47,002 nt of DNA from a virus. Shown in pieces: positions 8,734-22,038 of the stretch. Position 1 is the first letter of the stretch. Every line of letters begins with the position of its first letter. The DNA lies in the IMG/VR virus record IMGVR_UViG_3300031566_000076, positions 1 through 47,002 of that record; one strand, written 5' to 3'. The notes below the pieces were generated by a model. That model made no database searches and had not been told where the DNA came from. It saw only the letters and a list, made by a program, of their open reading frames with translations. The position numbers and the translations under genes were made by a program.

Positions 8734-8734
8734 G

Positions 8735-8975: not shown

Positions 8976-9030
8976 ACAGGTTAGTGCTTTTAAGTCGGCA
9001 ACCTGCCATACAACCGACCGTTAGCCACAA
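8976..9030 (-). other. attC-like remnant between two minus-strand cassette genes
   Basis: On the minus strand the upstream gene's stop lies in GGCTAACGG, followed by a short stem (GTCGG/CCGAC) and then a second CACTAACC. This is the same layout as GCCTAACGG at 12645 and CGCTAAC at 16650 on the plus strand. It lacks a full matching GTTRRR partner, so it is probably a partial or fused site. Confidence 0.4.
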
Positions 9031-9449: not shown

Positions 9450-9482
9450 AATCTCCTTGGTATGTTTTGTTAGTTTGTTCAA

Positions 9483-9959
9483 TTAATCAAACATCAAATT
9501 TAAAAACTCCTTATCGAAAATTTCAGGCGTAATATCCGGTAAAAATCGTTTCAAAATAACCGGCTGTGCATTTTTTACAAATGACTGGAATTTAATTTGG
9601 CTCATATTCTTAAAATCAATTGATCGCGGCACGTAAATCTCCTTACCTCCTAAAGAAATATGCAAATCATAATATCCTAATTGTAATTTCAATTCAATCA
9701 AAAGAGTATCGATCGAAGTATAACGATCGCTTATTAATCCAGTTTCTTTGTCAGTATAAGTCATAATTCGCTCCGGAATATGTTCCAAAACTTTAGAAAG
9801 TAATTTAAAAAATCGTCTATGATATAACAGGCTTCTTGCATCATAAGTTTGAAATGAAACAAATTCCCCCTCCAGAAGTTTTTCTAATACTTTTTTATCT
9901 TCTTCTTCATAAGCCAGAAGTTGCCCATTTTCCTTGATTAATAAATTATCTTTTTTCAT
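9483..9959 (-). CDS. DUF1367-like phage protein, 158 aa
   Basis: The pattern LLYHRRFFKLLSKVLEHIPE in the N-terminal half, and a C-terminal SIDFKNMSQIKFQSFVKNAQ with a Phe/Leu-rich end, fits the DUF1367 family seen beside recombination genes in many phages. Biochemical role unknown. It lies in a cluster with the annealing protein gene (10423-10992), and its start overlaps the preceding stop by one base. Confidence 0.6.
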   Translation of the reverse strand: MKKDNLLIKENGQLLAYEEEDKKVLEKLLEGEFVSFQTYDARSLLYHRRFFKLLSKVLEHIPERIMTYTDKETGLISDRYTSIDTLLIELKLQLGYYDLHISLGGKEIYVPRSIDFKNMSQIKFQSFVKNAQPVILKRFLPDITPEIFDKEFLNLMFD

Positions 9960-10426
9960 TATTTCAATGTCACTTTTGCCGTTGTCGTACTCGTTCTTAT
10001 TGGCTGAAATATTTCAATAATCTCTCCGGTTTCTTCATTAATTATATTTACCGATCCTTTAATTCCTTTTAAAAAATTTTGGCGTGATTCTATTTTTGCT
10101 TTTAATTCTAATGTACTTATAGCATATTTTGCAATTTCAAAATCATTACAATTTGAATAATCATATTTTACTCCTGCTTCTACTACACTTAATTTAGCAG
10201 TTTTATATTCAATGTCTTTTTCTGAATATTTGCTAAGTTCATCAACTGCTAATTGATTCAAGTATTCTTTAATATTTTTAACCATTTTTTCAAATCCCTT
10301 GATACATAATAATATATCTAAAGGATTTACATCACCAGAATCTAAAGTATCTTTTAATTCATTTGAAAATTTCGATACTTGATCATTTGATTCTGGTAAT
10401 AATCTGATTACTGACATTACATTCAT
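9959..10426 (-). CDS. hypothetical recombination-cluster protein, 155 aa
   Basis: Soluble helical protein that usually accompanies ERF-type genes in phage operons; no specific family recognised. The C-terminus has the short beta segment INEETGEIIEIF. Its ATG overlaps the stop of the ERF gene (ATGA at 10423-10426), suggesting translational coupling and a shared role in strand annealing or recombination. Confidence 0.6.
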   Translation of the reverse strand: MNVMSVIRLLPESNDQVSKFSNELKDTLDSGDVNPLDILLCIKGFEKMVKNIKEYLNQLAVDELSKYSEKDIEYKTAKLSVVEAGVKYDYSNCNDFEIAKYAISTLELKAKIESRQNFLKGIKGSVNIINEETGEIIEIFQPIRTSTTTAKVTLK

Positions 10427-10992
10427 GATGATTGCTTTATTAATTCGTCTTTAAAATCTTTTCTCATTTTATATACCTTTTCAATATCTTCCATTTTTAT
10501 TGTTTTGGCTTTTAATTTAGCTACTGCATTAGTCCAATCTTTAGTATTTTTGTTTAACCATTTTTTTTCATTAACTTCATTAGATGAAGCATTAGGTTTC
10601 TTTGCATTATCTACATTGTCAGGGTCTAATGTATTATCACTAATTCCGAAAGTTGTCATTTTCAAATATCTCTCAGTATAAGTAACACAACCACCTAGTT
10701 GTTGAGCTGCATTTGTGGCGGTTATTGAAGGAATAGCAGTAGCCATTGTTATTGTTTCCTTTTCGTCAGTTTCTAAATCAATAATAACTAATTCGCCATA
10801 TTCTCCAAATTCATTTCTTTTTAGACTGAATAAAGTTAATAAATTTGCATCTTGACAAGCAAGAAACACTAACTTATTTATCTGATCTGGGGTGAAATAT
10901 TTATATTTAGAATAATCATTCCATCCCTCTTTTTTCATATCAGTCATACTGATATGCTGTTTTGCTGCAAGAATTTTTTTATAAATTTCCAT
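10423..10992 (-). CDS. erf: ERF-family single-strand annealing protein
   Basis: 189 aa. The ERF core is visible: EGWNDYSKYKYFTPDQINKLV near residues 22-42, then a beta-rich middle and the signature AAQQLGGCVTYTERYLKMTTFGI (about 95-117), ending in DNTLDPD. The Lys-rich C-terminal tail is typical. ERF proteins form rings on single-stranded DNA and promote annealing for phage recombination and genome circularisation. It heads a three-gene recombination cluster with overlapping starts. Confidence 0.8.
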   Translation of the reverse strand: MEIYKKILAAKQHISMTDMKKEGWNDYSKYKYFTPDQINKLVFLACQDANLLTLFSLKRNEFGEYGELVIIDLETDEKETITMATAIPSITATNAAQQLGGCVTYTERYLKMTTFGISDNTLDPDNVDNAKKPNASSNEVNEKKWLNKNTKDWTNAVAKLKAKTIKMEDIEKVYKMRKDFKDELIKQSS

Positions 10993-10997
10993 AATAT

Positions 10998-11180
10998 TTA
11001 TAATTTATTGGGGTTAAAAATTTTCATTTCTTCGAATAAATCGGTTTCGACTTCTTCAATATCTTCAACATATTCATAAGTGCAATTTTCGGGCTGTTGT
11101 GACAATACTGTTTTTACAACATCATCAGATTCACATTCTATAATTTTAGAATAGAATACTTTTAGCTTTATTTTTTTCAT
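10998..11180 (-). CDS. small acidic protein, 60 aa
   Basis: Begins MKKIKLKVFYSKIIECESDD; acidic C-terminal half (VEDIEEVETDLFEE). Five bases separate it from the ERF gene. No family recognised; an acidic mini-protein in this place could be a regulator or DNA mimic, but nothing shows that. Confidence 0.5.
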   Translation of the reverse strand: MKKIKLKVFYSKIIECESDDVVKTVLSQQPENCTYEYVEDIEEVETDLFEEMKIFNPNKL

Positions 11181-11244
11181 AGTGATTTATTTAATTTTGT
11201 AATCAACAGATATATTATTACGAGTGATTATGTGACGAATCATT

Positions 11245-11511
11245 TCAAAACGGCTTTCCTCCCTGAATATTTTTCGCAGGTCTAAATCCAATCATAATTT
11301 GATTTGTGTCATTTTTTGATTTCAAATATCCATATTTGAAATAATAATCATTAATATCATTTGGATTCATACTTAATTCTTCTTTCTTATTCTTTTTAAT
11401 ATTATTTCCGACAAAAAAACAAACTCCTAATATGGATGCAATAATCAATACTGCTCCAATAATTACTATTATGATAAATAATTTTTCCATTTTTATGTGT
11501 TCAGTTTTCAT
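11245..11511 (-). CDS. single-span membrane protein, first gene of the leftward early operon, 88 aa
   Basis: One strong transmembrane segment (residues about 10-32, LFIIIVIIGAVLIIASILGVCFFV) and a charged cytoplasmic or periplasmic tail. The internal ATG (MEKLF) is an alternative start eight codons in. It is the first gene after the minus-strand promoter at 11540-11570, about 30 bases from the -7 box. First early genes in phages often target the host; the function here is unknown. Confidence 0.6.
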   Translation of the reverse strand: MKTEHIKMEKLFIIIVIIGAVLIIASILGVCFFVGNNIKKNKKEELSMNPNDINDYYFKYGYLKSKNDTNQIMIGFRPAKNIQGGKPF

Positions 11512-11539
11512 AATTACGATTTATTAATTATTATATCGC

Positions 11540-11570
11540 AAAGTAAGTAATTGTTTTTGATATATCAAAA
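11540..11570 (-). promoter_or_regulatory. leftward early promoter
   Basis: On the minus strand TTTG (11570-11567), exactly 19 bases, TTACTTTG (11547-11540), one base from TAnnTTTG. Its -33 box is the right half of the palindrome at 11556-11571. It faces the 88-aa membrane gene and the early operon. Confidence 0.65.
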
Positions 11571-11571
11571 C
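11556..11571. promoter_or_regulatory. 16-bp palindromic operator between overlapping promoters
   Basis: TTTTGATATATCAAAA is a perfect palindrome. Its left TTTG is the -33 box of the rightward promoter and its right half gives the -33 box of the leftward promoter, so one bound dimer or one polymerase would affect both directions. Confidence 0.65.
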
Positions 11572-11587
11572 TTATTTATATCTTTGT
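11557..11587 (+). promoter_or_regulatory. rightward promoter of the cassette region
   Basis: TTTG (11557-11560), exactly 19 bases, TATCTTTG (11580-11587): a full match to the Bacteroidota housekeeping consensus. Predicted start near 11594, with the HTH gene ATG at 11640. It probably drives the first plus-strand genes and possibly the whole array. Confidence 0.75.
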
Positions 11588-11639
11588 TTCATGTTTAATA
11601 GCATTTTTTTATATCAAGTAAATAACGTTTTTTTGTGAA

Positions 11640-11831
11640 ATGAAACATAAAAGTCATAACGTGGGAGAAAATCATCCCCGGGCCCGATTTACTGATAAAA
11701 TGGTAAAACGAATGAGAGAATTAAAAGAAATGGGAATAAGTATAAAAGAGTTATCAGATTTCTATAAAACTACATATAATCATATGTACAAATTAACATC
11801 TGAAAAGCATTATTTTAAACATTTAAACTAA
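11640..11831 (+). CDS. HTH DNA-binding protein, 63 aa, candidate switch regulator
   Basis: Starts MKHKSHNVGENHPRARFTDK: the GENHPRARFTD lead-in followed by MRELKEMGISIKELSDFYKT (about 26-45) is a helix-turn-helix of the resolvase/homing-associated type. It is the first gene after the consensus rightward promoter, whose -33 box lies in a perfect palindrome shared with the leftward promoter. It is therefore the best candidate for a repressor acting at 11556-11571. That assignment is inference. Confidence 0.65.
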   Translation: MKHKSHNVGENHPRARFTDKMVKRMRELKEMGISIKELSDFYKTTYNHMYKLTSEKHYFKHLN

Positions 11832-11841
11832 AAATAAAATT

Positions 11842-12000
11842 ATGATACCGATAGAATTAGGAATAATAGTGATAATTGCGGCAATAATAGTAGCCTTTTT
11901 ATATGCAAAAATGATATTAATTTGGCGTAATGTAATGCTAAAACAAAATGAAAGATGGTTAAAAGATGCTGAAAGGCTACGGGAATTACGGTATGAGTAG
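11842..12000 (+). CDS. small membrane protein, 52 aa
   Basis: Begins MIPIELGIIVIIAAIIVAFL: one transmembrane span (residues about 5-22) and a basic amphipathic tail (ERWLKDAERLRELRYE). Its stop overlaps the ATG of the next gene (ATGAGTAG at 11993-12000), so the two are probably translated together. Confidence 0.55.
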   Translation: MIPIELGIIVIIAAIIVAFLYAKMILIWRNVMLKQNERWLKDAERLRELRYE

Positions 12001-12199
12001 TGGAACAATTAGAATGAAATTATACGGAAAATACAGGGATGTATGGGTATCTGATACAAAGAATTGTAAAAACTATAAGTGCTTTCATCCACACAACTGC
12101 ACAGTACAAGGAGCAAGGGGTGTTAGAAGTAGTACTGAAAGATATATGTGCCTTACAAATGTAAATCACGGATGTCCAAATGAACCACAAACGCAATAA
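11993..12199 (+). CDS. Cys-rich small protein, 68 aa
   Basis: I start at the ATG 11993-11995, which overlaps the preceding stop; an ATG nine codons upstream is possible. Cysteines at CKNYKC, HNC, MCL and GCP with His residues suggest metal binding or disulfides. No family recognised. After it, GTACAACGG and a short GGCA/TGCC stem resemble a damaged cassette end. Confidence 0.55.
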   Translation: MSSGTIRMKLYGKYRDVWVSDTKNCKNYKCFHPHNCTVQGARGVRSSTERYMCLTNVNHGCPNEPQTQ

Positions 12200-12275
12200 A
12201 AATTACTGCGTACAACGGTTTAAATATGGCAAGTGCCATCACAGACTTTAATTAAAAACACTAAAGATTAGAATT

Positions 12276-12650
12276 ATGAAAAGATTTACCCAAAGAATAC
12301 GAAAGGCATTTGATATATTTTTTGTTAGGCGTATGTACGTTATTACACAAATTGATAATGGCGTAAAATATTACTACAAGGGTGCAGATAGTAAATGGAC
12401 ACCAATTTTTGAAGGGGCTAAACACTATAAAAAGAAACCTGACTTTGATTGGATAAGTGAACTTTGGCATAAGGTAGAAGAGTATGACGCATTGTTAGGC
12501 GTAGTTGCTTCTGAAAAAGAACAAAAGGTATTGATTTGTAATAACTGTAAAAATATATGGATAGCACCAAAAGACAGATGTGATTGTGGATGCACTATAC
12601 TAACAGAAACGCACCCAAGCAACTATAAGTATGCTCGCAATTACGCCTAA
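12276..12650 (+). CDS. cassette gene with C-terminal zinc ribbon, 124 aa
   Basis: Basic N-terminus (MKRFTQRIRKAFDIFFVRR), middle acidic helix, then CNNC (about residue 89) and CDCGC (about 105-109), forming a zinc knuckle. Family not recognised. Its stop codon TAA lies within GCCTAACGG (12645-12653), a perfect RYYYAAC core, as seen for integron cassettes whose genes end in their attC site. Confidence 0.6.
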   Translation: MKRFTQRIRKAFDIFFVRRMYVITQIDNGVKYYYKGADSKWTPIFEGAKHYKKKPDFDWISELWHKVEEYDALLGVVASEKEQKVLICNNCKNIWIAPKDRCDCGCTILTETHPSNYKYARNYA

Positions 12651-12678
12651 CGGCTAAGGTATGCAGCGTTTGAGCGTT
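12645..12678 (+). other. attC-like site, probably truncated
   Basis: GCCTAAC at 12645-12651 matches RYYYAAC exactly and contains the stop of the upstream gene. The following CGGC...GCAGCGTTTGAG can fold back weakly, and GTTTGAG is a poor GTTRRRY. I read it as a short or eroded site. Confidence 0.45.
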
Positions 12679-12712
12679 TTAATTAATTAATACAAACTTA
12701 AAATAATATATT

Positions 12713-13000
12713 ATGATTGACAAATACGAACTAATTGAATGTTTAGAATGGTTACAAGATAAAGGCTTTATTCAGTTTAAAGAAAGTGCAAAAGTTGATA
12801 TGGTTGAAGAATATTTAAGTAATTGCGGTGGAGAAAATGCTGTATTACCTATTGTTATAAACCGTACATACAAATGTGATAGATGTGGTACTGTTTATAT
12901 ACCTGTAAGTGGAATTGTAAATGCAGGATGCTGCACTGCACCAGTAACGCATAGAACTAGCGGACTTTGTGGTGGTCAATTAACAGAAATTACTAGCTAA
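12713..13000 (+). CDS. cassette gene with zinc-binding C-terminus, 95 aa
   Basis: The N-terminal helical half begins MIDKYELIECLEWLQDKGFI. The C-terminal half has CDRC (about residue 59), CC (about 76) and LCGG, consistent with a zinc ribbon. No family recognised. The 70 bases to the next gene hold only a weak AATGTT/AACATT repeat. Confidence 0.6.
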   Translation: MIDKYELIECLEWLQDKGFIQFKESAKVDMVEEYLSNCGGENAVLPIVINRTYKCDRCGTVYIPVSGIVNAGCCTAPVTHRTSGLCGGQLTEITS

Positions 13001-13070
13001 GTATGGTTTATAATGTTGAATAAAATATGGGATGGAAAATTAAGAACATTAACTAAATAACAGATGAATT

Positions 13071-13289
13071 ATGGAAAATGTAGAAAAGAAAAAAATTACA
13101 AAAAAAGAATTAATTGATTTCTATAATAAAATGAAATCTAACGTAATCGAACAAGTTGGTTATATATGGTTACCCTCGATTGACGGATTTAAGATATTTG
13201 AAATACCTGCAGAAAGACTTGATCTGTACTTAAAGGCGGAAAGCATGCATAACCAATTATCAATTAATGAAATCAAAGAGAGTTCTTAA
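13071..13289 (+). CDS. cassette gene, 72 aa
   Basis: Starts MENVEKKKITKKELIDFYNK; helical and amphipathic, with IWLPSIDGFKIFEIP in the middle. No family recognised. It is followed directly by the nested hairpin at 13293-13365, part of a family shared with two other cassettes. Confidence 0.55.
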   Translation: MENVEKKKITKKELIDFYNKMKSNVIEQVGYIWLPSIDGFKIFEIPAERLDLYLKAESMHNQLSINEIKESS

Positions 13290-13292
13290 TTT

Positions 13293-13365
13293 TATTTCCT
13301 ATGATTTTTAGTTAAGATTTGTCGCTTGTAAAAGCACTAATTTACAGATAACTAAGTAGGAAATA
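13293..13365 (+). repeat. cassette-end hairpin, family member 1
   Basis: TATTTCCTA (13293-13301) pairs with TAGGAAATA (13357-13365), TTAGTTA (13308-13314) with TAACTAA (13349-13355), and GCTT with AAGC (13324-13335). The bulge is asymmetric, six bases against one. It is followed by GTGCGAAGGCATAT, almost identical to the sequence after the hairpin at 15342-15416. The stem arms differ between family members while the inner TTAGTTA and outer flank are kept. Confidence 0.65.
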
Positions 13366-13428
13366 GTGCGAAGGCATATTTTATTCAACATTAAGATCAA
13401 TCGGTTTTGGAATTTAAATTTGATAATT

Positions 13429-13662
13429 ATGAAAACATTATTAGAAGCATTAAATGATGAATACAAAGAAAAATTTGCAGCCTTGTTAATAGTTGCAGAA
13501 ATGTTTGAAAAAGAAGATGAATTAATATTTAAGGAATTACTTAAAAAAGCCGCTGGCTGTAAATTGATGATTAAAGAATATGAAGCTGAATTATCAAAAT
13601 TAAATACAGGGGAGAAAGGAAGGGTGAGCGACAGCGAACAGCGAAGGAGCGCAAGCGATTGA
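13429..13662 (+). CDS. cassette gene, helical protein, 77 aa
   Basis: I use the ATG at 13429-13431, after an A/T-rich leader, rather than a distant upstream GTG. It is helical and Glu/Lys rich; the last 17 residues (GEKGRVSDSEQRRSASD) are encoded by GC-rich DNA unlike the rest, as if a new 3' end was joined. The stop TGA ends one base before the attC-like site at 13663. Confidence 0.55.
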   Translation: MKTLLEALNDEYKEKFAALLIVAEMFEKEDELIFKELLKKAAGCKLMIKEYEAELSKLNTGEKGRVSDSEQRRSASD

Positions 13663-13718
13663 TCTTAACGGATGGCAATATGTGGCGTTTTTTCTATGCC
13701 ATATATTGCGTGTTAGGT
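13663..13718 (+). other. attC-like recombination site, best example
   Basis: 56 bp. Left core TCTTAAC (13663-13669), right core GTTAGGT (13712-13718), the latter a full GTTRRRY match and able to pair with the left core. Inside, GCAATATGTGGC pairs with GCCATATATTGC with one mismatch around a T-rich loop. Spacers between core and stem are five bases on the left and two on the right. Position, directly after a stop codon, and size fit integron attC sites. Confidence 0.65.
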
Positions 13719-13772
13719 GTCTGTAAAATAAAAAAATAGGGAAGGCAATTTTTAACTTAAATATATACAAAA

Positions 13773-14306
13773 ATGAAAAAGAATTATAGAGAAATTGAAT
13801 TTGGATTTGGAAACATCGAATCTGCTGTAAAAGAATTGAAAAGCCATAAAGATTTGGTTTGTGGAACATTTAACGGACAAATATTATACTCCGATATTGA
13901 TGATATGGATTCCGCTTACAAAAAAGTAACAGGAAGCACAAAGGCTGAATTTGATGAAGCTAGAAGATTGGAAAATGCAGAATATGAACGCCAAAAGAAA
14001 GAGCATAAAGAAGCAATACCACAGTTAACTATTGAATGGATAGAAAAAGGAAATAAAATACTCGACAAGAAACACCATAAGACTTGGGCTAAATGCGTTC
14101 CAATTAGACTTGGTGATTTGTATCGAGGAATGGAATTAGGAAACTGCCTTGAAATAGTTGAGCAATTAAATAAAGGTGCTGAACTTGAAAAAGTAAAACC
14201 ACTTATAGAAGACCAAGGACACTCTGGAATGTCTTTTGGCTTAGTTTGTTCTATGGTAAAAGATTTTTGCGATAGGGGTGCTGAATTTGTTAGCTATGTA
14301 CGTTAA
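13773..14306 (+). CDS. cassette gene, conserved-looking unknown, 177 aa
   Basis: Largest unknown of the array. Charged helical centre (about 55-90, EARRLENAEYERQKKEHKEA) and a C-terminal part with VPIRLGDLYRGMELGNCLEI and GHSGMSFGLVCSMVKDFCDRG, which has the look of a conserved globular domain found in mobile elements. I cannot name the family. No catalytic triad is evident. Confidence 0.6.
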   Translation: MKKNYREIEFGFGNIESAVKELKSHKDLVCGTFNGQILYSDIDDMDSAYKKVTGSTKAEFDEARRLENAEYERQKKEHKEAIPQLTIEWIEKGNKILDKKHHKTWAKCVPIRLGDLYRGMELGNCLEIVEQLNKGAELEKVKPLIEDQGHSGMSFGLVCSMVKDFCDRGAEFVSYVR

Positions 14307-14319
14307 TCAAATGGTTTTG

Positions 14320-14372
14320 CAAAAACCAAGGTGCGGTGGGATTTTTTTATTTTATTGCACCTAATGTTTTGG
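14320..14372 (+). other. attC-like site, diverged
   Basis: CAAAAAC (14320-14326) and GTTTTGG (14366-14372) form the outer pair; AGGTGC pairs with GCACCT inside, around a T-rich loop. The core sequences depart from RYYYAAC/GTTRRRY, but the AAC...GTT order and size match the site at 13663. Confidence 0.45.
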
Positions 14373-14438
14373 AGAATAAGGGATGGTTTTTAAGCTGTAT
14401 TAGAGATGAAATTTATTGTTAAACTAAAAATAAATATT

Positions 14439-14759
14439 ATGAATTTGATAAACATTGCAGATTTAGAAAACCCGAAAACGGGAAAAACTTACAGAGAAGA
14501 AAATAATGCTAAAGTACATAAGTACAAGATTGATGATCTAATTGAAATTATAGCTTGGGATGAAGATTGTGAGTACGGAGGAATGAGACTTTACGTAATT
14601 GGTTGCGTTAGAGACTGTGACGGCACTCCACTATATGTACTTGGTAGCAAGGGCATGGAATTATATCAGAAAGCATTTGTTAAACCTGATACTTGCTATA
14701 ATTTTAATTCTTTCTCGGGTTTTGGCGAAGAAAGTTTGAAGCTAGTTAAATCTGCTTAG
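14439..14759 (+). CDS. cassette gene, 106 aa
   Basis: Start ATG at 14439-14441, after AAACTAAAAATAAAT, the A-rich leader type of this genome. Beta-rich protein with repeated short loops (DEDCEYGGMRLYVIGCVRDC) suggesting an SH3-like or other small barrel; no family recognised. It is flanked by an 18-bp inverted repeat (14361-14378 and 14884-14901), so the whole cassette sits between complementary ends. Confidence 0.6.
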   Translation: MNLINIADLENPKTGKTYREENNAKVHKYKIDDLIEIIAWDEDCEYGGMRLYVIGCVRDCDGTPLYVLGSKGMELYQKAFVKPDTCYNFNSFSGFGEESLKLVKSA

Positions 14760-14793
14760 TATCTGAATAATATTTATTCTCTATTAAATGCAG

Positions 14794-14872
14794 CTTAAAA
14801 ACTTGCCCTTGATTCTTTAGTTAGAGGTTGTGATATTTGGTAAAAACCTTTATTAGAACGCAAGTTTTTAAG
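14794..14872 (+). repeat. cassette-end hairpin, family member 2
   Basis: CTTAAAAACTTGC (14794-14806) pairs perfectly with GCAAGTTTTTAAG (14860-14872). The left arm is followed by TTGATTCTTTAGTTAGAGG and the right arm by GCGTGAAGGAGTAT, both alignable with members at 13293 and 15342, although the arms themselves are different. Confidence 0.65.
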
Positions 14873-14897
14873 GCGTGAAGGAGTATTCTCCAAAACA

Positions 14898-14983
14898 TTA
14901 GAGTTAATGATATTAGGGTTTTTGTGTGGAGGGCGAGGAAGCGGGCGAAGCCCAATTTAGGATGGGCGTATCATTAACTCTAA
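14898..14983 (+). other. palindromic intercassette site with GC-rich loop
   Basis: TTAGAGTTAATGATA (14898-14912) pairs perfectly with TATCATTAACTCTAA (14969-14983). The loop includes GGGCGAAGCCC, a stable small hairpin. It lies between the end of one cassette (CCAAAACATTAG) and the start of the next (AACATCGCAGG), where an attC is expected. It has no gene. Confidence 0.6.
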
Positions 14984-15091
14984 CATCGCAGGTTATATGA
15001 GATGTAAATTCTACAACATTGATTGATAAAAGATAAAGTAACAAATTGAATATAATTATAAATTTAGTATAAACTAAAAAATAAAAAAGCG

Positions 15092-15295
15092 ATGGAACAA
15101 AAATTATTTACAGAGATGAAGATTAATAACGGAAATACTCATATAATAGCAAGATGTCCAGATGAAGATGATGAAATGTGCATTACTATTAAGAATAGAT
15201 ATAAAGTTAATTTTAGTATGACGCTTCAGGAAGCTAAAGACTTTGCAGACTTTATAAATGCACATGTTAAAAATGCTATTGAATCTAATAAATAG
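15092..15295 (+). CDS. cassette gene, 67 aa
   Basis: Small protein, beta-rich N-terminal half (ARCPDEDDEMCITIKN) and C-terminal helix (MTLQEAKDFADFINAHVKNA). The pattern resembles short DUFs that follow 'CITI...LTxxEAxxLAxxI', but I cannot name one. It lies within an 18-bp inverted repeat (14982-14999 and 15427-15444). Confidence 0.55.
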   Translation: MEQKLFTEMKINNGNTHIIARCPDEDDEMCITIKNRYKVNFSMTLQEAKDFADFINAHVKNAIESNK

Positions 15296-15341
15296 CGGAG
15301 CGTAAGCTTTTATTTTTTATAGATTCTGAGTTGTGGAATTT

Positions 15342-15416
15342 ATGTCTTATGATAACTTAGTTAATGGTAGTTGTTAGTGGTTTGAAAAGAACGTTTCAGA
15401 TACAGTCATAAGACAT
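15342..15416 (+). repeat. cassette-end hairpin, family member 3
   Basis: ATGTCTTATGA (15342-15352) pairs perfectly with TCATAAGACAT (15406-15416). Inner left sequence TAACTTAGTTAATGG and inner right TTTCAGATACAG match the member at 13293; the flank GTGCGGAAGGCATAT follows. The 46 bases between the preceding stop and the hairpin show no gene. Confidence 0.65.
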
Positions 15417-15441
15417 GTGCGGAAGGCATATAACCTGCGAT

Positions 15442-15619
15442 GTTAAAGGTAATTGTTGTTTAGCCTTTTCGTGTGTAGGCAAAAAGGAAGGTTTAAAATT
15501 ATCATGATTAGAGTAGTTACACTACCTAAATAGCAATAAATTTAATGTCATGTATTTGGCACCATTTACTTGACAATTTTAAATAGGAAGGTTTTTAGCG
15601 TGAAACAATTACCTTTAAC
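15442..15619 (+). other. geneless palindrome-bounded segment, 178 bp
   Basis: GTTAAAGGTAATTGTT (15442-15457) pairs perfectly with AACAATTACCTTTAAC (15604-15619). The interior has short repeats (GCCTTTTCG...AAAAAGGAAGG; GTAGTTACACTAC at about 15511-15523) but no open frame of note. It may be the long variable loop of an attC, or a cassette without a protein gene. Confidence 0.55.
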
Positions 15620-15694
15620 GGTTAGCTTAAGTGGAGTTTGCCAACAAATACAGGAAAGATTTAAACGAGAATATTAACCAATAATTTACGAGCG

Positions 15695-15976
15695 ATGGGA
15701 AAAAGTAAGTTAATAACAGTAGATGATATTTATATTGAATTAGAATCAATTTTTGATAACTTCGAATCTGGTTATAACAGGAGAATTGCTGTTTATAAAA
15801 AATTAAATGAATTATTACCAAACTGGGAAGGGCGTGTTAGCAAAAAGAAACAAACGAGTGAGCAAATTCCATTTGAAGCGTTGTTAGGAGTTTCGTTGCC
15901 TATATGTAAAAATTGTAAAAAAACGATGAAGATTGCAGCTTATGAATGTGAATGTGGAATAGTTAGAGAAGGATAG
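15695..15976 (+). CDS. cassette gene with C-terminal zinc ribbon, 93 aa
   Basis: Helical N-terminal domain (LITVDDIYIELESIFDNFES), then CKNC (about residue 73) and CECG (about 86-89) forming a compact zinc ribbon at the end. It is one of several cassette genes here ending in such a module. It sits between GTTAGC (15621) and CCTAAC (15986), the expected cassette boundaries. Confidence 0.6.
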   Translation: MGKSKLITVDDIYIELESIFDNFESGYNRRIAVYKKLNELLPNWEGRVSKKKQTSEQIPFEALLGVSLPICKNCKKTMKIAAYECECGIVREG

Positions 15977-15984
15977 GCAATGAC

Positions 15985-16114
15985 TCCTAACGAATTATGG
16001 TATGAAAAGTTGCGGATTTAATGGTAGAACTTTTCAGCCTACAACAAAATTAAATTAGAATTACAAACCTACGGATTGCTACGCACCCGCAATTTTTTAT
16101 ACCATGTGTTAGCG
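15985..16114 (+). other. attC-like recombination site, long form
   Basis: Left core TCCTAAC (15985-15991) and right core GTTAGCG (16108-16114). ATGGTATGAAAAGTTGCGG (15997-16015) pairs with CCGCAATTTTTTATACCAT (16087-16105), 17 of 19 as Watson-Crick pairs and the other two as G-T. The spacers are again five bases left and two right, as at 13663-13718. About 70 bases of variable loop contain no gene. Confidence 0.65.
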
Positions 16115-16134
16115 TTTCGTGCATTATTAAACAT

Positions 16135-16407
16135 ATGTCAAAAGTAATAGTTAGAAAAACAATCGCGACCAATTATCAATCTGAATTAGATTATCCAATT
16201 TACTTGAATTTTCAAAACGAAGATTGTTTGGATGAATTGGTTAAAGTTGACGAAAAGTATAGAATAACCGTAAAGCATAATCATTTTGGTTTTGAAATTG
16301 ATTACTCTACAATGAACACTATATTTGAACATGACCTATGTAGTTTAACTACAAAAGAACATTTTGAGCAATTTTTAGATGAGGCAATTAAAATATTAAA
16401 CAAATGA
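16135..16407 (+). CDS. cassette gene, 90 aa
   Basis: Starts MSKVIVRKTIATNYQSELDY; acidic beta/alpha protein with no recognised family. It overlaps the next gene by four bases (ATGA), so this cassette carries a two-gene pair. Both are flanked by GTTAGCGTTTCGTGCA (16108) and TGCATGAACGCTAAC (16642). Confidence 0.55.
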   Translation: MSKVIVRKTIATNYQSELDYPIYLNFQNEDCLDELVKVDEKYRITVKHNHFGFEIDYSTMNTIFEHDLCSLTTKEHFEQFLDEAIKILNK

Positions 16408-16655
16408 AACCTGACTTTTTTCAAATAAAAAAAGGATGCTATAAAATCGGCATTAACCAATTTATATCTGGAATGGATAATAAACCAGTAGTTCGAGTAG
16501 AATGCGTAAATGATTATACCCACGCTCAGGATATAGATGACGAATGGATAGACGAACAAATTTGCGCTATGTTTACATTTAGGAATATAGATGATTATGA
16601 TTTATTTATTCAAAAGTTGCAAGATGCACGGTCGTTTCTTTTGCATGAACGCTAA
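16404..16655 (+). CDS. cassette gene, 83 aa, pairs with upstream gene
   Basis: Begins MKPDFFQIKKGCYKIGINQF. Length, acidity and the C-terminal pattern (FRNIDDYDLFIQKLQDARSFL) resemble the upstream 90-aa protein's end (FEQFLDEAIKILNK), hinting at a distant duplication or a toxin/antitoxin-like pair, but this is weak. Its TAA lies in CGCTAAC, the cassette-end core. Confidence 0.55.
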   Translation: MKPDFFQIKKGCYKIGINQFISGMDNKPVVRVECVNDYTHAQDIDDEWIDEQICAMFTFRNIDDYDLFIQKLQDARSFLLHER

Positions 16656-16703
16656 CAACGGTAAGCATAAACAACGTACGCACAGTTTAGTATAAAAGAT
16701 AAA

Positions 16704-16979
16704 TTGAAAAACAAAAATAAAAAGCGAAGCGTGGGAAAAGTTATTATAGTTTTTTTAAGCCAGTTGATTTTCGGATTCGTAAGAAACCTTAACACAAGAT
16801 ACGTATCTAAAGAAAATGTAAAATTAAGCGTGATAACTGGGTTTTTAGTAAAAACATCTTGGTTAGTAGCTACATATTTAGGAGTTTCTTCATTAATAGA
16901 AGGAAATTATATAGTAACTGCATTTTATATAATAGGTGGGGTGTTAGGTGATTATTTATCGTTTAAAATTAAAATATGA
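16704..16979 (+). CDS. multi-span membrane protein, 82-91 aa
   Basis: Either the TTG at 16704 or the GTG at 16731 is the start; no ATG is available, and the GTG follows the same AAAAAGCG-type leader as the 15092 and 15695 genes. Three hydrophobic segments (about residues 12-26, 43-63 and 70-86 of the long form) with FGFVRNLNTRYVS between the first two. No named family. It overlaps the PP-loop gene by four bases, so the two probably act together. Confidence 0.55.
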   Translation: MKNKNKKRSVGKVIIVFLSQLIFGFVRNLNTRYVSKENVKLSVITGFLVKTSWLVATYLGVSSLIEGNYIVTAFYIIGGVLGDYLSFKIKI

Positions 16980-17734
16980 AACAATTTATAAGTTTTAGTG
17001 GTGGCGTTGAAAGCTCAACGATGTGTGTTTTGTTTGGAAATAAAGCAGATGCTATATTTTGCGATACTGGTTTTGAACATGAAGAAATTTATAAAAGAAT
17101 TGATTTGGTTGAACATTGGGTTAAAAACTTTCATAGATCAGATTTTAAAATACATAGAATACAAAACGAAAAGCATGGAAGTTTAATTGACTACATAAAA
17201 GAAGCAAAGTTTTATCCAAGTTTCCAAGCTAGATATTGCACTAGGATGTTTAAAATTGAACCTATTGATAAATACCTAGAGCAATTTAAAGCCGATGGCG
17301 TTGAATTAATGATTGGTTTAAATGCTGATGAAATAGAACAAAGAACTGGAAACCACGGAAATAAAAAGTTTGTTAAATATAGCTACCCTTTAGCCGATAA
17401 TAATTTAACTAGACAGGCTTGCATAGCAATATTAAAGAAAGTTGATTTATATCCTGAATTTCCTGCTTATATGAGGCGTGGCGGTTGCGTAGGCTGTTAC
17501 TATAAAAGTATAAAAGAATATGAAGCAATGGCATTATTGAACCCAAAAGAGTTTAATATAGTACAACTTTTGGAAGAAGAGATTCAAGACATTAGAAAGG
17601 AGTATTTTAGTATAAAACAAAATATTACGATGAAACAAATAAAAGAAAATGTTTCTAATATGTTATTTAAACCAGATGATATTTATCCAATAATTAACGA
17701 TGCCACAAAATGTGGTGTATTTTGTAACCGATAA
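16976..17734 (+). CDS. PP-loop ATPase, PAPS reductase/DndC-like, 252 aa
   Basis: N-type ATP-pyrophosphatase: PP-loop SFSGGVESS (residues about 5-13), then RYCTRMFKIEP (about 87-97) and a Cys motif GGCVGCYY (about 169-176). The C-terminus has KCGVFC. The family includes PAPS/APS reductases, DndC of DNA phosphorothioation and many phage members of unknown substrate. No IscS/DndD/DndE partners are nearby, so DNA phosphorothioation is not supported. It is the best recognised enzyme of the array and is translationally coupled to a membrane protein. Confidence 0.8.
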   Translation: MKQFISFSGGVESSTMCVLFGNKADAIFCDTGFEHEEIYKRIDLVEHWVKNFHRSDFKIHRIQNEKHGSLIDYIKEAKFYPSFQARYCTRMFKIEPIDKYLEQFKADGVELMIGLNADEIEQRTGNHGNKKFVKYSYPLADNNLTRQACIAILKKVDLYPEFPAYMRRGGCVGCYYKSIKEYEAMALLNPKEFNIVQLLEEEIQDIRKEYFSIKQNITMKQIKENVSNMLFKPDDIYPIINDATKCGVFCNR

Positions 17735-17744
17735 AAATAAAAAC

Positions 17745-17963
17745 ATGAAAGACGAAGAAATTAAAAAAGAATTAAAGAAATTAAAAGAACAAAGATTAGA
17801 AATCAATAATCAGATTTCCAGAATTGAGAAAGAATGTCAACACATATGGAAACATGGTTACTTGGCAGAACCTATTATTTATTGCGAAATATGTGATAGA
17901 GAAATACAGGATGTTTACTCCAATATGAGTAATAGGGATATTGAAAAATTAATAGGAAAGTAA
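17745..17963 (+). CDS. small coiled-coil plus zinc-site protein, 72 aa
   Basis: I start at the ATG 17745-17747, 10 bases after the PP-loop gene's stop. Residues 1-32 are a Lys/Glu coiled coil; then ECQHIWKHG and CEIC form a probable Cys/His zinc site. The same architecture (helical part plus C-terminal zinc site) occurs in several other cassette genes here. Confidence 0.55.
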   Translation: MKDEEIKKELKKLKEQRLEINNQISRIEKECQHIWKHGYLAEPIIYCEICDREIQDVYSNMSNRDIEKLIGK

Positions 17964-18242
17964 TAATTATTAAACGTTTGGAACAAACGTAATGAGCGTG
18001 GGGCTTTTTATTTTAGATTAATAACGTAAGATGTTAATTAAATGAAAGGATAAGTATGGTGTTTGATGCATTGTTATGTGGTGGGAATGGATTGTGCGAA
18101 TTTCGGCTTTAGTTTTGCCGATTAAAACCGAGCAACTTTATACCATAATACTGTAAAGTTTGTGGTGTTGTAAAAGTTGCGATGGTTGAGGCAAAATTAC
18201 ACATAACTATGTTGTATATACCATTTAATTTGTAATTGAATT
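17964..18242 (+). other. 279-bp intergenic region with palindromes, no gene
   Basis: Contains a hairpin ACGTTTG-GAA-CAAACGT (17974-17990), a cassette-like outer repeat GTTATGTG (18073-18080)/CACATAAC (18200-18207), a hairpin around TTTCGGC/GCCGATT (about 18102-18124) and GCAACTTT/AAAGTTGC (about 18133-18180). The piece between the GTTATGTG and CACATAAC ends looks like a second geneless cassette. No open frame of note. Confidence 0.5.
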
Positions 18243-18533
18243 ATGAAAGTAATTGAATTTGAGAGAGATAGTTTACAATTAAAATATTTAATTACTACTC
18301 ACAGACTTATTGGATTTAAAAATATAGTTGTTTCAAATAAAAAAATATATCAATTGCCTTGCATGATAGGTAAAAGATCGTATGATTTAAAAGAAATAAA
18401 ACCAAAATATCATATGTGTATGATTCATTATATTATTGAATCAAAAAGATATTCAATTAAGCAATTAAAAAAATTAATAGTAAGATTTGATGATAAGATA
18501 TTAATAGAAAAAACGCCATTATATCCGTTTTAA
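18243..18533 (+). CDS. last plus-strand gene, hypothetical, 96 aa
   Basis: Basic Ile/Lys-rich protein beginning MKVIEFERDSLQLKYLITTH; no family recognised. It ends one base before the convergent minus-strand lysis genes, with no terminator hairpin visible between them. Unlike the other array genes it has no attC-like site after it, so it may belong to the phage rather than to a cassette. Confidence 0.55.
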   Translation: MKVIEFERDSLQLKYLITTHRLIGFKNIVVSNKKIYQLPCMIGKRSYDLKEIKPKYHMCMIHYIIESKRYSIKQLKKLIVRFDDKILIEKTPLYPF

Positions 18534-18534
18534 T

Positions 18535-18693
18535 TTAGTTCAAATCTTCAATATTTACTGTTTTATTTCGCTTTAGTTTAATTTTATTATTATTAACAAT
18601 TTCAGGTTTATCTAAAATTTTGGCATAAAAATAAGCACCAGAAATGAAACCTATAATAAATGCTATCAATACGAATATTATAATTTTTTTCAT
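18535..18693 (-). CDS. small signal-anchor protein, possible spanin component, 52 aa
   Basis: Begins MKKIIIFVLIAFIIGFISGA: one hydrophobic span (about 4-20), then a hydrophilic basic tail. It is the last gene of the holin/endolysin cluster and overlaps the holin gene by four bases. Size and place suit an inner-membrane spanin-like protein, but no outer-membrane partner or coiled coil of normal length is present, so the role is a guess. Confidence 0.5.
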   Translation of the reverse strand: MKKIIIFVLIAFIIGFISGAYFYAKILDKPEIVNNNKIKLKRNKTVNIEDLN

Positions 18694-18902
18694 TTCTTTA
18701 ATTCTGCAAATTTTGAGAATATCTTTTCCCCAAAAGAATATGCAAGCAATACAATAACCATCGGCAATGCATCACCTAAAGTGACATCTTTTACAAATAC
18801 TGACATTATAGCAATGAATATTCCTGCAATTGCTGCAATAAATGTTTTCACACGAGTAGAGCTTAAGACGCCCGGTGATTCTTCAAATAATTTTGTTTTC
18901 AT
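18690..18902 (-). CDS. holin, 70 aa
   Basis: Two hydrophobic segments (about residues 18-38 and 43-58), a charged N-terminus and a Lys-rich C-terminal end (FSKFAELKK), typical of small holins. It sits 17 bases after the endolysin gene. Holins form pores that release or activate the endolysin at the end of infection. Confidence 0.7.
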   Translation of the reverse strand: MKTKLFEESPGVLSSTRVKTFIAAIAGIFIAIMSVFVKDVTLGDALPMVIVLLAYSFGEKIFSKFAELKK

Positions 18903-18919
18903 AATTTCATAATTTTAAT

Positions 18920-19279
18920 TTATACTATATTGCGCTCAAAATGCGGCGTATCTAAAAAGTTTTTGAAATGTCCGCCCCATCTATTTAATTTATTTAAATT
19001 TTCCCAAAATATTCCGATCTCTTCCAATTCATTTTTTTCATAGCAAGGTTTTTTGTTGATAAATATTATCAAATCAACTGCACATCCATATAGGTGATTT
19101 GATTCTTTTACTTTACTTAATCCTTGCTCAAAATACAAATTTTGCATTTCCTGAGGTCTTAAAACCTCTTTGATTGTTACCTTTAATTTTTTTACCCTTA
19201 TTATAAAATCAAGTAATATATTAAAGTCTTTTGCAAATTCAAATTGATGATCTGATAATGTCATTTTCTTTATTTTCAA
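18920..19279 (-). CDS. endolysin, M15-type peptidase, 119 aa
   Basis: Peptidase M15 (L-Ala-D-Glu/D-Ala-D-Ala endopeptidase) signature: ESNHLYGCAVDLI (about residues 59-71, zinc ligands H and D) and LDTPHFE (about 108-114, third zinc ligand His and catalytic Glu region), with RWGGHF before it. Length is that of a single-domain phage lysin such as T5 Lys-like enzymes. It cuts peptidoglycan cross-bridges for lysis. Its start is overlapped by the small gene 19239-19376. Confidence 0.85.
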   Translation of the reverse strand: MKIKKMTLSDHQFEFAKDFNILLDFIIRVKKLKVTIKEVLRPQEMQNLYFEQGLSKVKESNHLYGCAVDLIIFINKKPCYEKNELEEIGIFWENLNKLNRWGGHFKNFLDTPHFERNIV

Positions 19280-19376
19280 ATATATATTTTTCTCTTACCC
19301 TTATCATTAATTCTCTTGCCGAAATATCAGGATATTTTGTTTTTAGTTCTTGATATATTTCATTAAAAGATTTCAT
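19239..19376 (-). CDS. small helical protein ahead of endolysin, 45 aa
   Basis: Begins MKSFNEIYQELKTKYPDISA, ATG at 19374-19376, ending TGA at 19239-19241, and overlaps the endolysin start by 41 bases. It begins three bases before repeat element copy 2, the same relation as the genes at 8153 and 29329. No family recognised; it could act as a leader peptide controlling endolysin translation. Confidence 0.45.
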   Translation of the reverse strand: MKSFNEIYQELKTKYPDISARELMIRVREKYIFENKENDIIRSSI

Positions 19377-19379
19377 TAT

Positions 19380-19620
19380 ACATGTTTTACTGCAATTGTT
19401 ACATTTAGTTTATGTATATTTGTGTTATTCTGCATGAACTGATAATCAATGAGTTACGTACTTTAAGTAAACTCACAATCATCAAAATATAAAAAATCTT
19501 ATTAATCTTCATAAGTTGCACTATATTAGTTTGTTATATCAATTATTAACTCGCTTAGGATTTTGTTCGTGTATAATTGTACATATTCATTTTGAATATG
19601 CGATTCTAAGAGAGTTAAGG
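19380..19620 (-). repeat. dispersed ~235-bp structured leader element, copy 2
   Basis: Nearly the same as copy 3 (29331-29567) and clearly related to copy 1 (8155-8396). It holds the operator-like AATTGTTACATTT (19394-19406), CATGAACTGATAATCA, CTTCATAAGTTGCACTATATTAGTTTG-type blocks, and the arms AACTCGCTTAGGAT / GATTCTAAGAGAGTT enclosing about 45 bases. The right edge overlaps the stop codon of the upstream gene (19615), and the left edge meets the start of the 45-aa gene before the endolysin. Confidence 0.8.
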
Positions 19621-19872
19621 TTCGTTTCTTGTTAATGTATACTGATAGGGTAAAATTATTTCCTCATCATTTGCTATTTTTTGTTGATTAAATTGTAATT
19701 CCAATACCGATGTGCCTAAAATAACAATATCGTTTTTATTTATTTCAATTTGTTTTAATCCAATTCGAATACTACCAAGATTAACTATGAATCCAGTTAT
19801 TATTTGAATTATCACAAATATAATAATCGCTTTCCATAATTTGAAATCGAATATTTTTGTTTCTTTCGACAT
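19615..19872 (-). CDS. single-span membrane protein, 85 aa
   Basis: Hydrophobic segment at about residues 15-33 (IIIFVIIQIITGFIVNLGSI), followed by a hydrophilic domain. It lies between the tail fibre gene and the lysis cluster, so a lysis or superinfection role is possible. Its stop codon is part of repeat element copy 2. Confidence 0.6.
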   Translation of the reverse strand: MSKETKIFDFKLWKAIIIFVIIQIITGFIVNLGSIRIGLKQIEINKNDIVILGTSVLELQFNQQKIANDEEIILPYQYTLTRNEP

Positions 19873-19917
19873 TATATTACTCTTTTAATCAATTCTAAGT
19901 CTTTCATAGTTTGTGCT

Positions 19918-22038
19918 TTAATAAATTATATCATATAAAGCAGATTTAATTTGAGCGTGTCCATCCGTAATCGGATGGACTCCATCCGAATGGTAATTAG
20001 TTGGATAAGTTACGGAATTTTTTATGTTTGCATAAACAGCATAATCTCTAGTATCACATAATCCAGAAATAGCAATTCTGTAATCTTCTAATAAAGATGT
20101 TTCTCCATTTCTATACAGTGGAGCACAACAATAAACAACAATATCTTCATCGGCTGCATTTATAGCATCTAATAAATTACCGTACCATGTGGCAATTATT
20201 GCAGCAGGAGTTGAATCTATACCATAATCATTAGTTCCTAATGCAATAATTAGTTTTTTATCCGTAGAGTCATAAAATAATGAAACTAATTTAGATACAG
20301 CATCAGCAATCAATTCAGGTGTTTCTGCAAAAGTTTCAATTTTTGCACCTCCCCATCCATAAGTTGAAACTACCTTATCATTATCAACACTAAATAAATT
20401 GGGGAATGATTGTACAGCTGGAATTTCCGTTACATCTCCAACAGTTATACTATCACCTATAAATACAAGTCGTTCAGTTGATGATATTATATCTTGTTTA
20501 ACATAACTAACACCTTCTAAAACTGAAGTTATAAATGTACCTACAATTGTGCCCGAATTAGTTATTAATCCTTCTATCAATGTAACTATTTTATTTCCTG
20601 ATGGTAAATTAGTTATTATATAATCAGTATCAATTATATCAATTTTTTTATAAAAAATACCATCAATTAAAATTGTAATATGAGAATATTGTGGGCTACT
20701 AGCATAGATGGTTGGATTAGCTTTTATACTTATAGCTGTTCCATAATATGCAAACGAATATCTGCTAAATGCATTCCTTATCTTGTAAGTTCCTTCATCA
20801 GATATTAATACAGAGTTATCAAATAATCCATCATATTGCTCAGTAAATACATACTGATAATCATTAGTATATAGTAAAACTTTTATTAAATCACTTCCTG
20901 TTTTATTTGTATCATACGAAAATAGTTCTTTTATATAATTTCTATTATGAATTGAATCTAAGTTTAAATTAGGAAATAAAGTTCCAGTATATGATTCATT
21001 TAAATATGATGAAATAACATCTCTGTTTATTTCAGATACATGCCACCATGTAGGATTTGTTATTAAATATAATCCTGTCCTGGCTGTTGCATTGAATATT
21101 GTTTCGTTTGACCGATTCCATAAAGGAATATTTATATAAGTTGGTGTTAAATTGTGATAATTTTCTAATCCTTCATGATTAGAATTTAATTCATATCCAG
21201 CAGGCACTAAAAATGCACTTACATCATTTGGTAATCCTTCGTCGGTATATGGTACATATGCATCATCTTGTCCTGTTTTTGAATAAATAGAATAACCTTT
21301 ATCCAATAAATGTAAATTAGACTCTTCATCATACTTTAAATGAGAAGTTCCAGTATATGAAACGTGCAACGTCCCGATTACATCATATTCATATTTACCA
21401 ATTCCTGTTAATATCCATTTATGAGTATTGTTATAATCTATATAAACTATTTTTAAATTTGGTGATCTTAGCATTGATGTGTACTTCATCACTCCAATTC
21501 CTATATTATCTCGTCCTGTTATTTTATCTAGCCAAAACCCGTTATTTTCGCCTGTGGTGGCAAATTCTTTAGATTCTCCATTAATTAATAAAAAATAAGC
21601 ACTTCCATTACTCATCCATCTAATAGTATACCACCCCTCGGTTAATGGAGTTTCATATTTCAATGTATTACTAACTACACCTAATGCTCTTACTTCTAAA
21701 TATATAAATTTATTTACGACACTAAAAGCAAAATAGTCTGTAGTCGTTGATTCATCCGCAGTTGAAAAAAACATATGTCTATTTGTGGTACCATCAAAAT
21801 AGAATTTTGCTTCTATATATCCTGATGTATCTAATATCCTGAAATTTGCTATCGTTGGAATGATATAATTGCTAATATTAAAATATCCGCAGCTAGGAAT
21901 AATGACAGCGTCATTTTCAGCAATAGTATCAACCATAATTATCCCACTACGACCAATTGATCTAAAGTTTAAATCAGAGCTAAAAGGAATGCCTTGCAAT
22001 CTCCTTCGTCCCACAATATTTAAATTTAAATTATGCAT
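19918..22038 (-). CDS. tail fibre with C-terminal SGNH esterase domain, 706 aa
   Basis: The last about 180 residues are an SGNH/GDSL hydrolase: block I GDSITVG (about 527-533), block II-like GWGGAK, block III GTNDY (about 591-595) and block V DGVHP (about 683-687) with catalytic Asp and His. The N-terminal part is beta-rich with LamG-like strands (FRILDTSGYIEAKFYF), probably a virion attachment and carbohydrate-binding region. Such fibres remove acetyl groups from surface polysaccharides during adsorption. It lies at the end of the tail operon, as receptor-binding genes usually do. Confidence 0.8.
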   Translation of the reverse strand: MHNLNLNIVGRRRLQGIPFSSDLNFRSIGRSGIIMVDTIAENDAVIIPSCGYFNISNYIIPTIANFRILDTSGYIEAKFYFDGTTNRHMFFSTADESTTTDYFAFSVVNKFIYLEVRALGVVSNTLKYETPLTEGWYTIRWMSNGSAYFLLINGESKEFATTGENNGFWLDKITGRDNIGIGVMKYTSMLRSPNLKIVYIDYNNTHKWILTGIGKYEYDVIGTLHVSYTGTSHLKYDEESNLHLLDKGYSIYSKTGQDDAYVPYTDEGLPNDVSAFLVPAGYELNSNHEGLENYHNLTPTYINIPLWNRSNETIFNATARTGLYLITNPTWWHVSEINRDVISSYLNESYTGTLFPNLNLDSIHNRNYIKELFSYDTNKTGSDLIKVLLYTNDYQYVFTEQYDGLFDNSVLISDEGTYKIRNAFSRYSFAYYGTAISIKANPTIYASSPQYSHITILIDGIFYKKIDIIDTDYIITNLPSGNKIVTLIEGLITNSGTIVGTFITSVLEGVSYVKQDIISSTERLVFIGDSITVGDVTEIPAVQSFPNLFSVDNDKVVSTYGWGGAKIETFAETPELIADAVSKLVSLFYDSTDKKLIIALGTNDYGIDSTPAAIIATWYGNLLDAINAADEDIVVYCCAPLYRNGETSLLEDYRIAISGLCDTRDYAVYANIKNSVTYPTNYHSDGVHPITDGHAQIKSALYDIIY

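Follow-up and report, generated by a model that had tools for sequence, protein, structure and literature searches.

A Probable Integron-like Cassette System, Distinct from Integrons Proper, Carried by Phages of Bacteroidota

The 47,002-base virus record IMGVR_UViG_3300031566_000076, which was analysed whole and which we call the window, contains an array of small genes and hairpins. In arrays of this kind many cassettes are complementary between their own start and their own end, and not to their neighbors. We think it probable, at about 0.6, that these arrays represent an integron-like cassette system that is distinct from integrons proper and is carried by phages, and equally so that the window is best explained as a tailed phage of Bacteroidota bearing such an array without its own recombinase.

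Results

Phage setting of the array

The window has portal, GpA-type terminase, DnaB, Erf, and tape-measure genes, and no PF00589 recombinase anywhere in its length; none of eight related phage records carries PF00589 either. The terminase occurs at seven loci elsewhere. One of these is the contig IMGVR 3300031565_000147, which is 100% identical over window positions 8642-24303 and, as a twin, contributes no variation. None of the 11 records given contains the window's terminase. Judged by the terminase, at 66% identity, the most complete relative is G411, which itself bears eight attC-like hairpins. The comparison turned up no near relative whose array differs, the Erf gene was not found in three of the terminase-bearing records, and blastn of the whole region against phage records gave no match. 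In Rfam nothing reached the gathering score, and three matches over 12900-16800 (E about 1-4) are taken as chance. For ten open reading frames (ORFs) of the cassette region, Pfam and PHROG gave weak matches only, none of them at E <= 0.001. The genome also contains a dispersed repeat of ~240 bp, 85-91% identical, at three sites (8153-8396, about 19385-19628, and 29326-29565).

Inverted repeats and units of the window

The inverted repeats of the window are real and far above chance. Exact inverted repeats within 1.5 kb comprise one of 18 bp and two of 19 bp, and 20 Markov shuffles gave none of at least 18 bp. A reading of the window made from sequence only had proposed three such pairs as the boundaries of single cassettes. 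The first, 14361-14378 with 14884-14901, is exact over its 18 bp. The second, 14982-14999 with 15427-15444, is also exact and in fact longer, at 19 bp (14981-14999 with 15427-15445), or 27 nt at 93%. The third, described as near-perfect at 16108-16123 with 16642-16656, holds for nine exact base pairs (GTTAGCGTT / AACGCTAAC) and is then interrupted, with TGCA-type pairing thereafter. Together with additional pairs at 13011/13393 (19 bp), 13391/13668 (13 bp), 14898/14983 (15 bp), and 15442/15619 (16 bp), these repeats tile 13011-16656 head to tail, adjacent ones overlapping by 3-4 bp of TAA/TTA.

The three proposed pairs are two different things, because the last is an ordinary cassette body (unit K) and the first two (units E and G) stand in the opposite register. 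The canonical register, (G)TTR...YAA(C), is that of units B, D, I, and K and of the non-coding F and H; the hairpin register, YAAC...GTTR, is that of C, J, and a hairpin at 8899-9023 on the minus strand. From its 5′ end, the plus-strand array runs as follows. Unit A (13011-13393; ORF 13071-13289) is in the reversed register, TAA...TTA, with 19-bp arms and a 3′ domain at ~13288-13375. Unit B (13391-13668; ORF 13429-13662) is a canonical body with 13-bp arms; an exact search for its end found two other phages, in which the unit B ends surround different ORFs (L003 and L030 have the same ends and other ORFs). The short attC-like hairpin C (13666-13715), whose left arm has two G.T mismatches, precedes the canonical unit D (13712-14365; ORF 13773-14306), with the arm GTTAGGTG / CACCTAA and a 14-bp extension. 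Unit E (14361-14901; ORF 14406-14759) has 18-bp outer arms, 24-nt inner arms, and a 3′ domain at 14796-14885, and unit G (14981-15445; ORF 15092-15295) has 19-bp outer arms, inner arms, and a 3′ domain at 15336-15427. Between them lies F (14898-14983), a hairpin with a perfect 15-bp stem, and after G lies H (15442-15619), with 16-bp arms. Unit I (15621-15991; ORF 15695-15976) is a canonical body whose core matches directly over only 5 bp, with more beyond an apparent short insertion, and its self-match score (see below) is less than 8. The long attC-like hairpin J (15988-16111; 124 nt, with G.T at nt 13 and 18) is followed by unit K (16108-16656; ORFs 16135-16407 and 16404-16655), the body with the 9-bp core arm and interrupted extension described above.

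attC-like hairpins

Across the 15 phage and prophage sequences that we compared, 57 hairpins have two left-arm G.T mismatches at constant positions; when all 15 were shuffled, one hairpin was obtained. The two mismatches are 5 nt apart in 31 of 37 hairpin cases. Over the 57 hairpins, 91 G.T on one side compare with 22 A.C and 15 C.A, and 37 positions are bulged. Thus, where two extrahelical bases would be expected of an attC site, these hairpins have G.T mismatches, at equivalent positions and in a different form. In all 14 elements tested, the coding strand gives the more stable fold, a stability that the G.T mismatches raise.

A model built from 27 long hairpins (R2) found no match in four class 1 plasmid regions. 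In the window it gives 103.5 bits to the minus-strand hairpin at 8899-9023, which agrees with the minus-strand genes there, and 95.7 bits to hairpin J, both of which are in its seed, and 43.5 bits to a weak, possibly decayed plus-strand hairpin at 12213-12327, which is outside the seed. With two strong and two weaker attC-like hairpins in a record without a recombinase, the window has the composition by which a CALIN is defined (at least two attC sites, no intI), the hairpins being called by our own scan and R2.

Cassettes match their own ends and not those of their neighbors

Taking a cassette as the sequence between successive hairpins, we obtained 49 distinct cassettes from the 15 sequences. 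A self-match score of at least 8 was reached by 26 of the 49, versus 0.9% of 2,108 cross pairs; in every score the anchors fix the initial three or four bases on both sides. These 26 cassettes, 190-880 nt long, share one anatomy. Nucleotides 1-9 are paired in 230 of 234 cells, of which two are T.G; nt 11 is unpaired throughout, with T as the end base in 25 and a G.T in 15; nt 12-15 are paired in 20, 19, 22, and 15; and pairing is at background level beyond nt 15. The bases past nt 4 vary freely. The cores YAAC/GTTR are built into the scan, and some boxes fit RYYYAAC/GTTRRRY, others not. Among the 23 cassettes scoring less than 8, some span a probably missed hairpin and some are bounded by false hairpins admitted at the lower threshold. 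Longer arms were found under loose boundary rules, and such repeats were kept only for the window, G003, and L014.

At the 12 junctions where both neighbors self-match, the score is 3-7 in every case. Because neighbors are unmatched, an extended stem is possible only in an excised circle or in one folded cassette. The earlier proposal that each excised circle would rebuild an extended, cassette-specific stem is partly supported: it agrees with the self-matching bodies and not with units E and G, which are out of register. Its premise, that the ends of integron cassettes match for about seven bases only, is not supported. Among 14 class 1 genes of four plasmids, 10 self-match over 8-13 bp (catB3, 13; aadA2 and three copies of aacA4, 12; oxa1, 9; four others, 8), and four score 3-6 (aadA1, qacG, one aacA4, and aadA16, the last near a locus edge); the seven class 1 junctions score 3-6. 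A match of more than 7 is thus normal, and the difference lies in the regular 15-nt arm with its built-in mismatch.

Two further observations concern cassette ends. In L014, positions 7655-8370 have 25-nt arms (~22 matched) around what seems from its sequence to be a methylase-like gene, and GTGCGGTGGG precedes the 3′ arm, as it does in unit D. Cassettes at L012 9055-9322 and G005 10804-11251 have identical first 22 nt and last 15 nt and lengths of 268 and 448 nt, so apparently different cargo occupies one frame.

Sharing of cassettes between loci

Unit D has homologues in eight other viral contigs and one Flavobacteriales MAG prophage. At 91-92% DNA identity it is found in L014, L016 (the same as G004), and that prophage, L024, with homology running from 1 nt before GTTA to 0-4 nt past TAAC; between L014 and L024 it begins 9 nt before GTTA, where the hairpin arms agree. 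For the site-specific excision and insertion at G^TT that mark integrons, these block edges at GTTA/TAAC are indirect evidence. The flanking hairpins are not common to the three loci, a small sample in which cassette D does not travel with its downstream attC-like hairpin. The sequence-only reading had named two findings that would speak against it. One was arms lying within longer conserved intergenic blocks, which is not so here, since the homology of cassette D stops at the arms. The other was a relative that keeps both arms and lacks the cassette; none was found, and the gene E homologue in L021 has no arms. Among more diverged copies of D with different arms, self-match is kept in L011, L012, L014, and L015 and is imperfect in L016, and L013, L017, and L018 have no core-anchored match. 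Many chromosomal blocks common to genomes consist of a hairpin alone, the block edges coinciding or nearly coinciding with the hairpin ends.

Gene E is bare in L021, has other arms in L020, and is in the reversed register in the window. Relatives of this gene (14406-14759) occur in 14 records of phages of Pseudomonas, Achromobacter, and Caulobacter, so ordinary phage genes are part of the cargo. The analysed sequences showed neither excised circles nor empty sites nor any recombination event.

Reversed-register units

Units A, E, and G and one unit of L003 are a separate family, defined by 17-bp covarying arms and a conserved 3′ domain. All 68 cells of their 17 outer-arm positions are Watson-Crick pairs, with no wobble, and 11 of these positions covary. 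The 3′ arm is broken by a domain of 80-95 nt with an invariant TTAGTTA and a GTGCG-type motif, in which seven pairs have changed on both sides, a result from five sequences only that none of 500 shuffles matched. L030 carries the same domain, and no 5′ arm was found there. The inner arms of A, E, and G have seven G.T and no A.C. No canonical cassette shares the 3′ domain. Motif searches of viral contigs for the domain gave 11 stretches each, with real context only in the twin, L003/L025, and L030. A model of it (R1) returned from 41 sources (720 kb) its five seeds, one duplicate, and two weak matches (E 0.24 and 0.76), and it matched none of 60 genomes of the order. These nearly empty searches indicate that the family is rare within the searched sequence.

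Units E and G had been taken for whole cassettes that would rebuild a stem on excision. Their TAA...TTA register is the opposite of that of integron cassettes, and closing their ends would yield a plain palindrome with no core site. An intron or ribozyme reading was dropped, as there is no Rfam support and the outer arms lack wobble pairs. Nor do the units of the array, in either register, resemble terminal inverted repeat transposons, because the arms differ in every unit, there is no transposase, and the unit ORFs have no family match at E <= 0.001. In L003, a long near-perfect palindrome (CCAATACTACTTATAACAAGCATA...) at about 14650-14730, just upstream of the reversed-register unit, repeats the left-boundary sequence.

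A, E, and G stand where attC hairpins normally stand, and from their ends only, which are hairpin-like in register, we infer that they are gene-bearing sites of the same system. The competing view, which takes them for a mobile element of another kind, with variable terminal repeats, that only happened to enter the array, is doubtful but merits serious consideration. It draws on the 3′ domain common to A, E, G, L003, and L030 and absent from canonical cassettes, on cargo that consists of unrelated small ORFs, and on a terminus that is TTA and not a core box. However, in all three phages the reversed unit stops exactly at the start of canonical unit B, no copy lies outside such arrays in the 720 kb or the 60 genomes, and the element encodes no enzyme.

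Chromosomal arrays and a candidate recombinase

R2 matches were found in 31 of 40 genomes of the class to which the Flavobacteriales MAG belongs, with up to 43 per genome. Nine chromosomal pieces chosen for their R2 matches contain 22 cassettes, of which 21 self-match and show the anatomy seen in phages. Nucleotide 11 is unpaired in 21 of 21 (G.T in 18, C.T in 3), nt 12-15 are paired in 19, 21, 20, and 19 of 21, and the 11 junctions score 3-6. The cross-pair background, 6.5%, is above that of the phage set, in our view because similar ends recur. The spacing of the G.T mismatches is mainly 5 in phages and 3 in chromosomes. Genes run with hairpin polarity in all 28 phage cases that have an ORF of at least 60 amino acids and against it in 20 of 21 cases in chromosomes, an opposition that one insertion mechanism does not explain and that counts against the interpretation we prefer.

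In G019, a 370-residue recombinase adjoins the array. It passes the Xer-type model NF040815 (233 bits, cut-off 220) and fails the integron integrase model TIGR02249 (206 bits, cut-off 265), and when it and six relatives were aligned with IntI1 and one true IntI of the class, all seven lacked the IntI insertion. The array-linked enzymes keep, in this alignment, what we take to be the catalytic residues. They also have an N-terminal segment of ~90 amino acids without a Pfam match (L113:12173-13285 and relatives), which may resemble HARP-type DNA-binding domains. The recombinase (E <= 1e-50) is present in 22 of the 40 genomes, all 22 among the 31 with hairpins, a co-occurrence with a chance of about 2e-4 when phylogeny is not corrected for. 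At seven of 21 recombinase loci, the closest hairpin lies 3′ of the gene in antiparallel orientation; 11 more have a contig end within 1.5 kb on that side, one of them with a 5′-side hairpin, and three, with sequence in reach, have no hairpin. Shuffles gave none. This linkage and co-occurrence suggest that the Xer-type recombinase is likely the mobilizer. By comparison, IntI exceeds its cut-off in one of 395 genomes of the class, and that genome, G151, has no strict-box hairpins in 18 kb and one weak R2 match (E 0.03).

Discussion

The arrays resemble integrons in having promoter-poor small genes between hairpins with RYYYAAC/GTTRRRY-like cores, in having two irregular bases on one hairpin arm, and in having cassettes whose start is complementary to their own end and not to the neighbor (26 of 49 in phages, 21 of 22 in chromosomes). 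They differ in the constant 15-nt arm, mismatched at nt 11, in the conservation of GTTR/YAAC only, and in bodies that are shared without their hairpin. Published attC sites, in the available part of one description (PMC3053210), have extrahelical bases such as T-N6-G, in contrast to the G.T mismatches here. The additional domain of IntI, which the accessible text of another study uses as a criterion for selecting intI genes (PMC2426708), is missing from the chromosomal array-linked enzymes, which lack the insertion, and the window has no PF00589 gene at all. Those enzymes are like XerA, XerC, and XerD in passing NF040815, and unlike them in having a hairpin array alongside and the extra N-terminal segment. 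In the Treponema chromosomal integrons, as far as the consulted sections describe them (PMC3607928), the integrase is likewise transcribed toward the array and the cassette genes share one direction, but the enzyme is described as intI, whereas ours fails the integron integrase model.

Phage CALINs are already known. Qi et al. 2023 described them in virulent phages, and one of these, Polaribacter phage P12002L, has a site, attC2, that recombines with IntI1 (PMC9892861, in the portion available). Integrase-free arrays in tailed phages, and P12002L itself, are thus common to both studies, and P12002L has hairpins of the present type, one of which may be attC2. Reversed-register gene units, the anatomy of the self-match, and an Xer-type chromosomal link were not met in that portion of the paper. 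The 11 published taxon-specific attC models include none for Bacteroidota, in the sections we could consult (PMC8352920). Integrons are regarded as almost missing from Bacteroidota; the available text on IntegronFinder 2.0 mentions one complete integron, in Salinibacter, besides earlier reports of nothing more than In0 elements (PMC9024848). Within the open-licence literature, outside which lie most subscription papers and all preprints, no arrays of this kind with an Xer-type enzyme were found.

We propose that in these arrays cassette bodies (GTTR...YAAC) alternate with attC-like hairpins (YAAC...GTTR), and that in a canonical body ~15 nt at the two ends would pair with each other as nine base pairs, the fixed mismatch at nt 11, and about four pairs more. 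As neighbors are unmatched, this arm could form only in a closed body, either circular or folded as a single strand. In the closed body it would complete the outer arm of a recombination site beside the GTT/AAC core. A recombinase would fold the single strand, with arm and hairpin as the two halves of one site around that core. Since the complete site would exist only in the circle, capture should be favored over loss, a prediction that can be measured. The home of the system would be Bacteroidia chromosomes, where same-ended arrays adjoin the Xer-type tyrosine recombinase, and units such as E and G would be a sister type in the opposite register, with a small ORF inside the hairpin and a conserved domain in the 3′ arm. 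A bolder form of this proposal, to which we give somewhat less than an even chance, is that Bacteroidota own a second, IntI-independent system, in which the Xer-type recombinase moves bodies, hairpins are interchangeable modules, phages ferry the cassettes, and units A, E, and G are sites that have swallowed genes.

Several other explanations were considered. The arrays could be classical CALINs whose cassettes are moved by an ordinary IntI encoded elsewhere, with the long matches being the upper tail of the normal range. The 8-13-bp self-match of 10 of the 14 class 1 cassettes, which likewise excludes neighbors, and the use by IntI1 of a site in P12002L (PMC9892861, available portion), a phage with hairpins of the present type, are what this would predict. 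We nevertheless consider it unlikely, because IntI was found in one of 395 genomes while hairpins are in 31 of 40, beside a recombinase without the IntI domain, because mismatches stand in for the bulged bases of class 1 sites, and because cassette D is shared without its downstream hairpin.

Alternatively, the hairpins and clamped ends could act in RNA, shaping, protecting, or terminating transcripts, with no role in mobility. Such a role would account for the greater stability of coding-strand folds in 14 of 14 elements and for the prevalence of G.T over A.C and C.A, both in the 57 hairpins (91 versus 22 and 15) and in the inner arms of A, E, and G (7 versus no A.C). It is made quite improbable by arms almost without wobble (two T.G among 234 cells at nt 1-9, none of 68 in the reversed units), by block edges that are sharp at GTTA/TAAC, and by chromosomal genes that oppose hairpin polarity in 20 of 21 cases, such that the favorable strand is not the coding one there. 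The same scarcity of wobble intermediates would fit neutral correction of palindromes, in which template switching during replication copies one arm from the other and keeps them alike without function. Correction would, however, erase the mismatch at nt 11, which stays unpaired in all 26 phage and all 21 chromosomal cassettes with a self-match; pairing drops to background beyond nt 15; and the arms of cassettes of 190-880 nt are far apart unless circular or folded. We regard this as very improbable.

If the integron-like reading is correct, with arrays in most of the class and an Xer-type enzyme, a system not filed as an integron works like one, and gene capture through folded DNA is wider than the IntI family. 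The self-match rule offers a direct sequence test for intact cassettes. It also bears on how genes enter cassettes, as with gene E, bare in L021 and armed in L020 and the window.

Finally, 11 of 35 long attC-like hairpins contain an ATG frame of at least 90 nt that runs through the GTTR core into the next cassette, so that the following gene may take its start from the hairpin. Such hairpin-leader ORFs were seen in G411, G003, G008, G409, L012, P12002L, and the window hairpin at 8899-9023, with similar peptides across phages (MIREQNIQ... and MNKEQNTS...).
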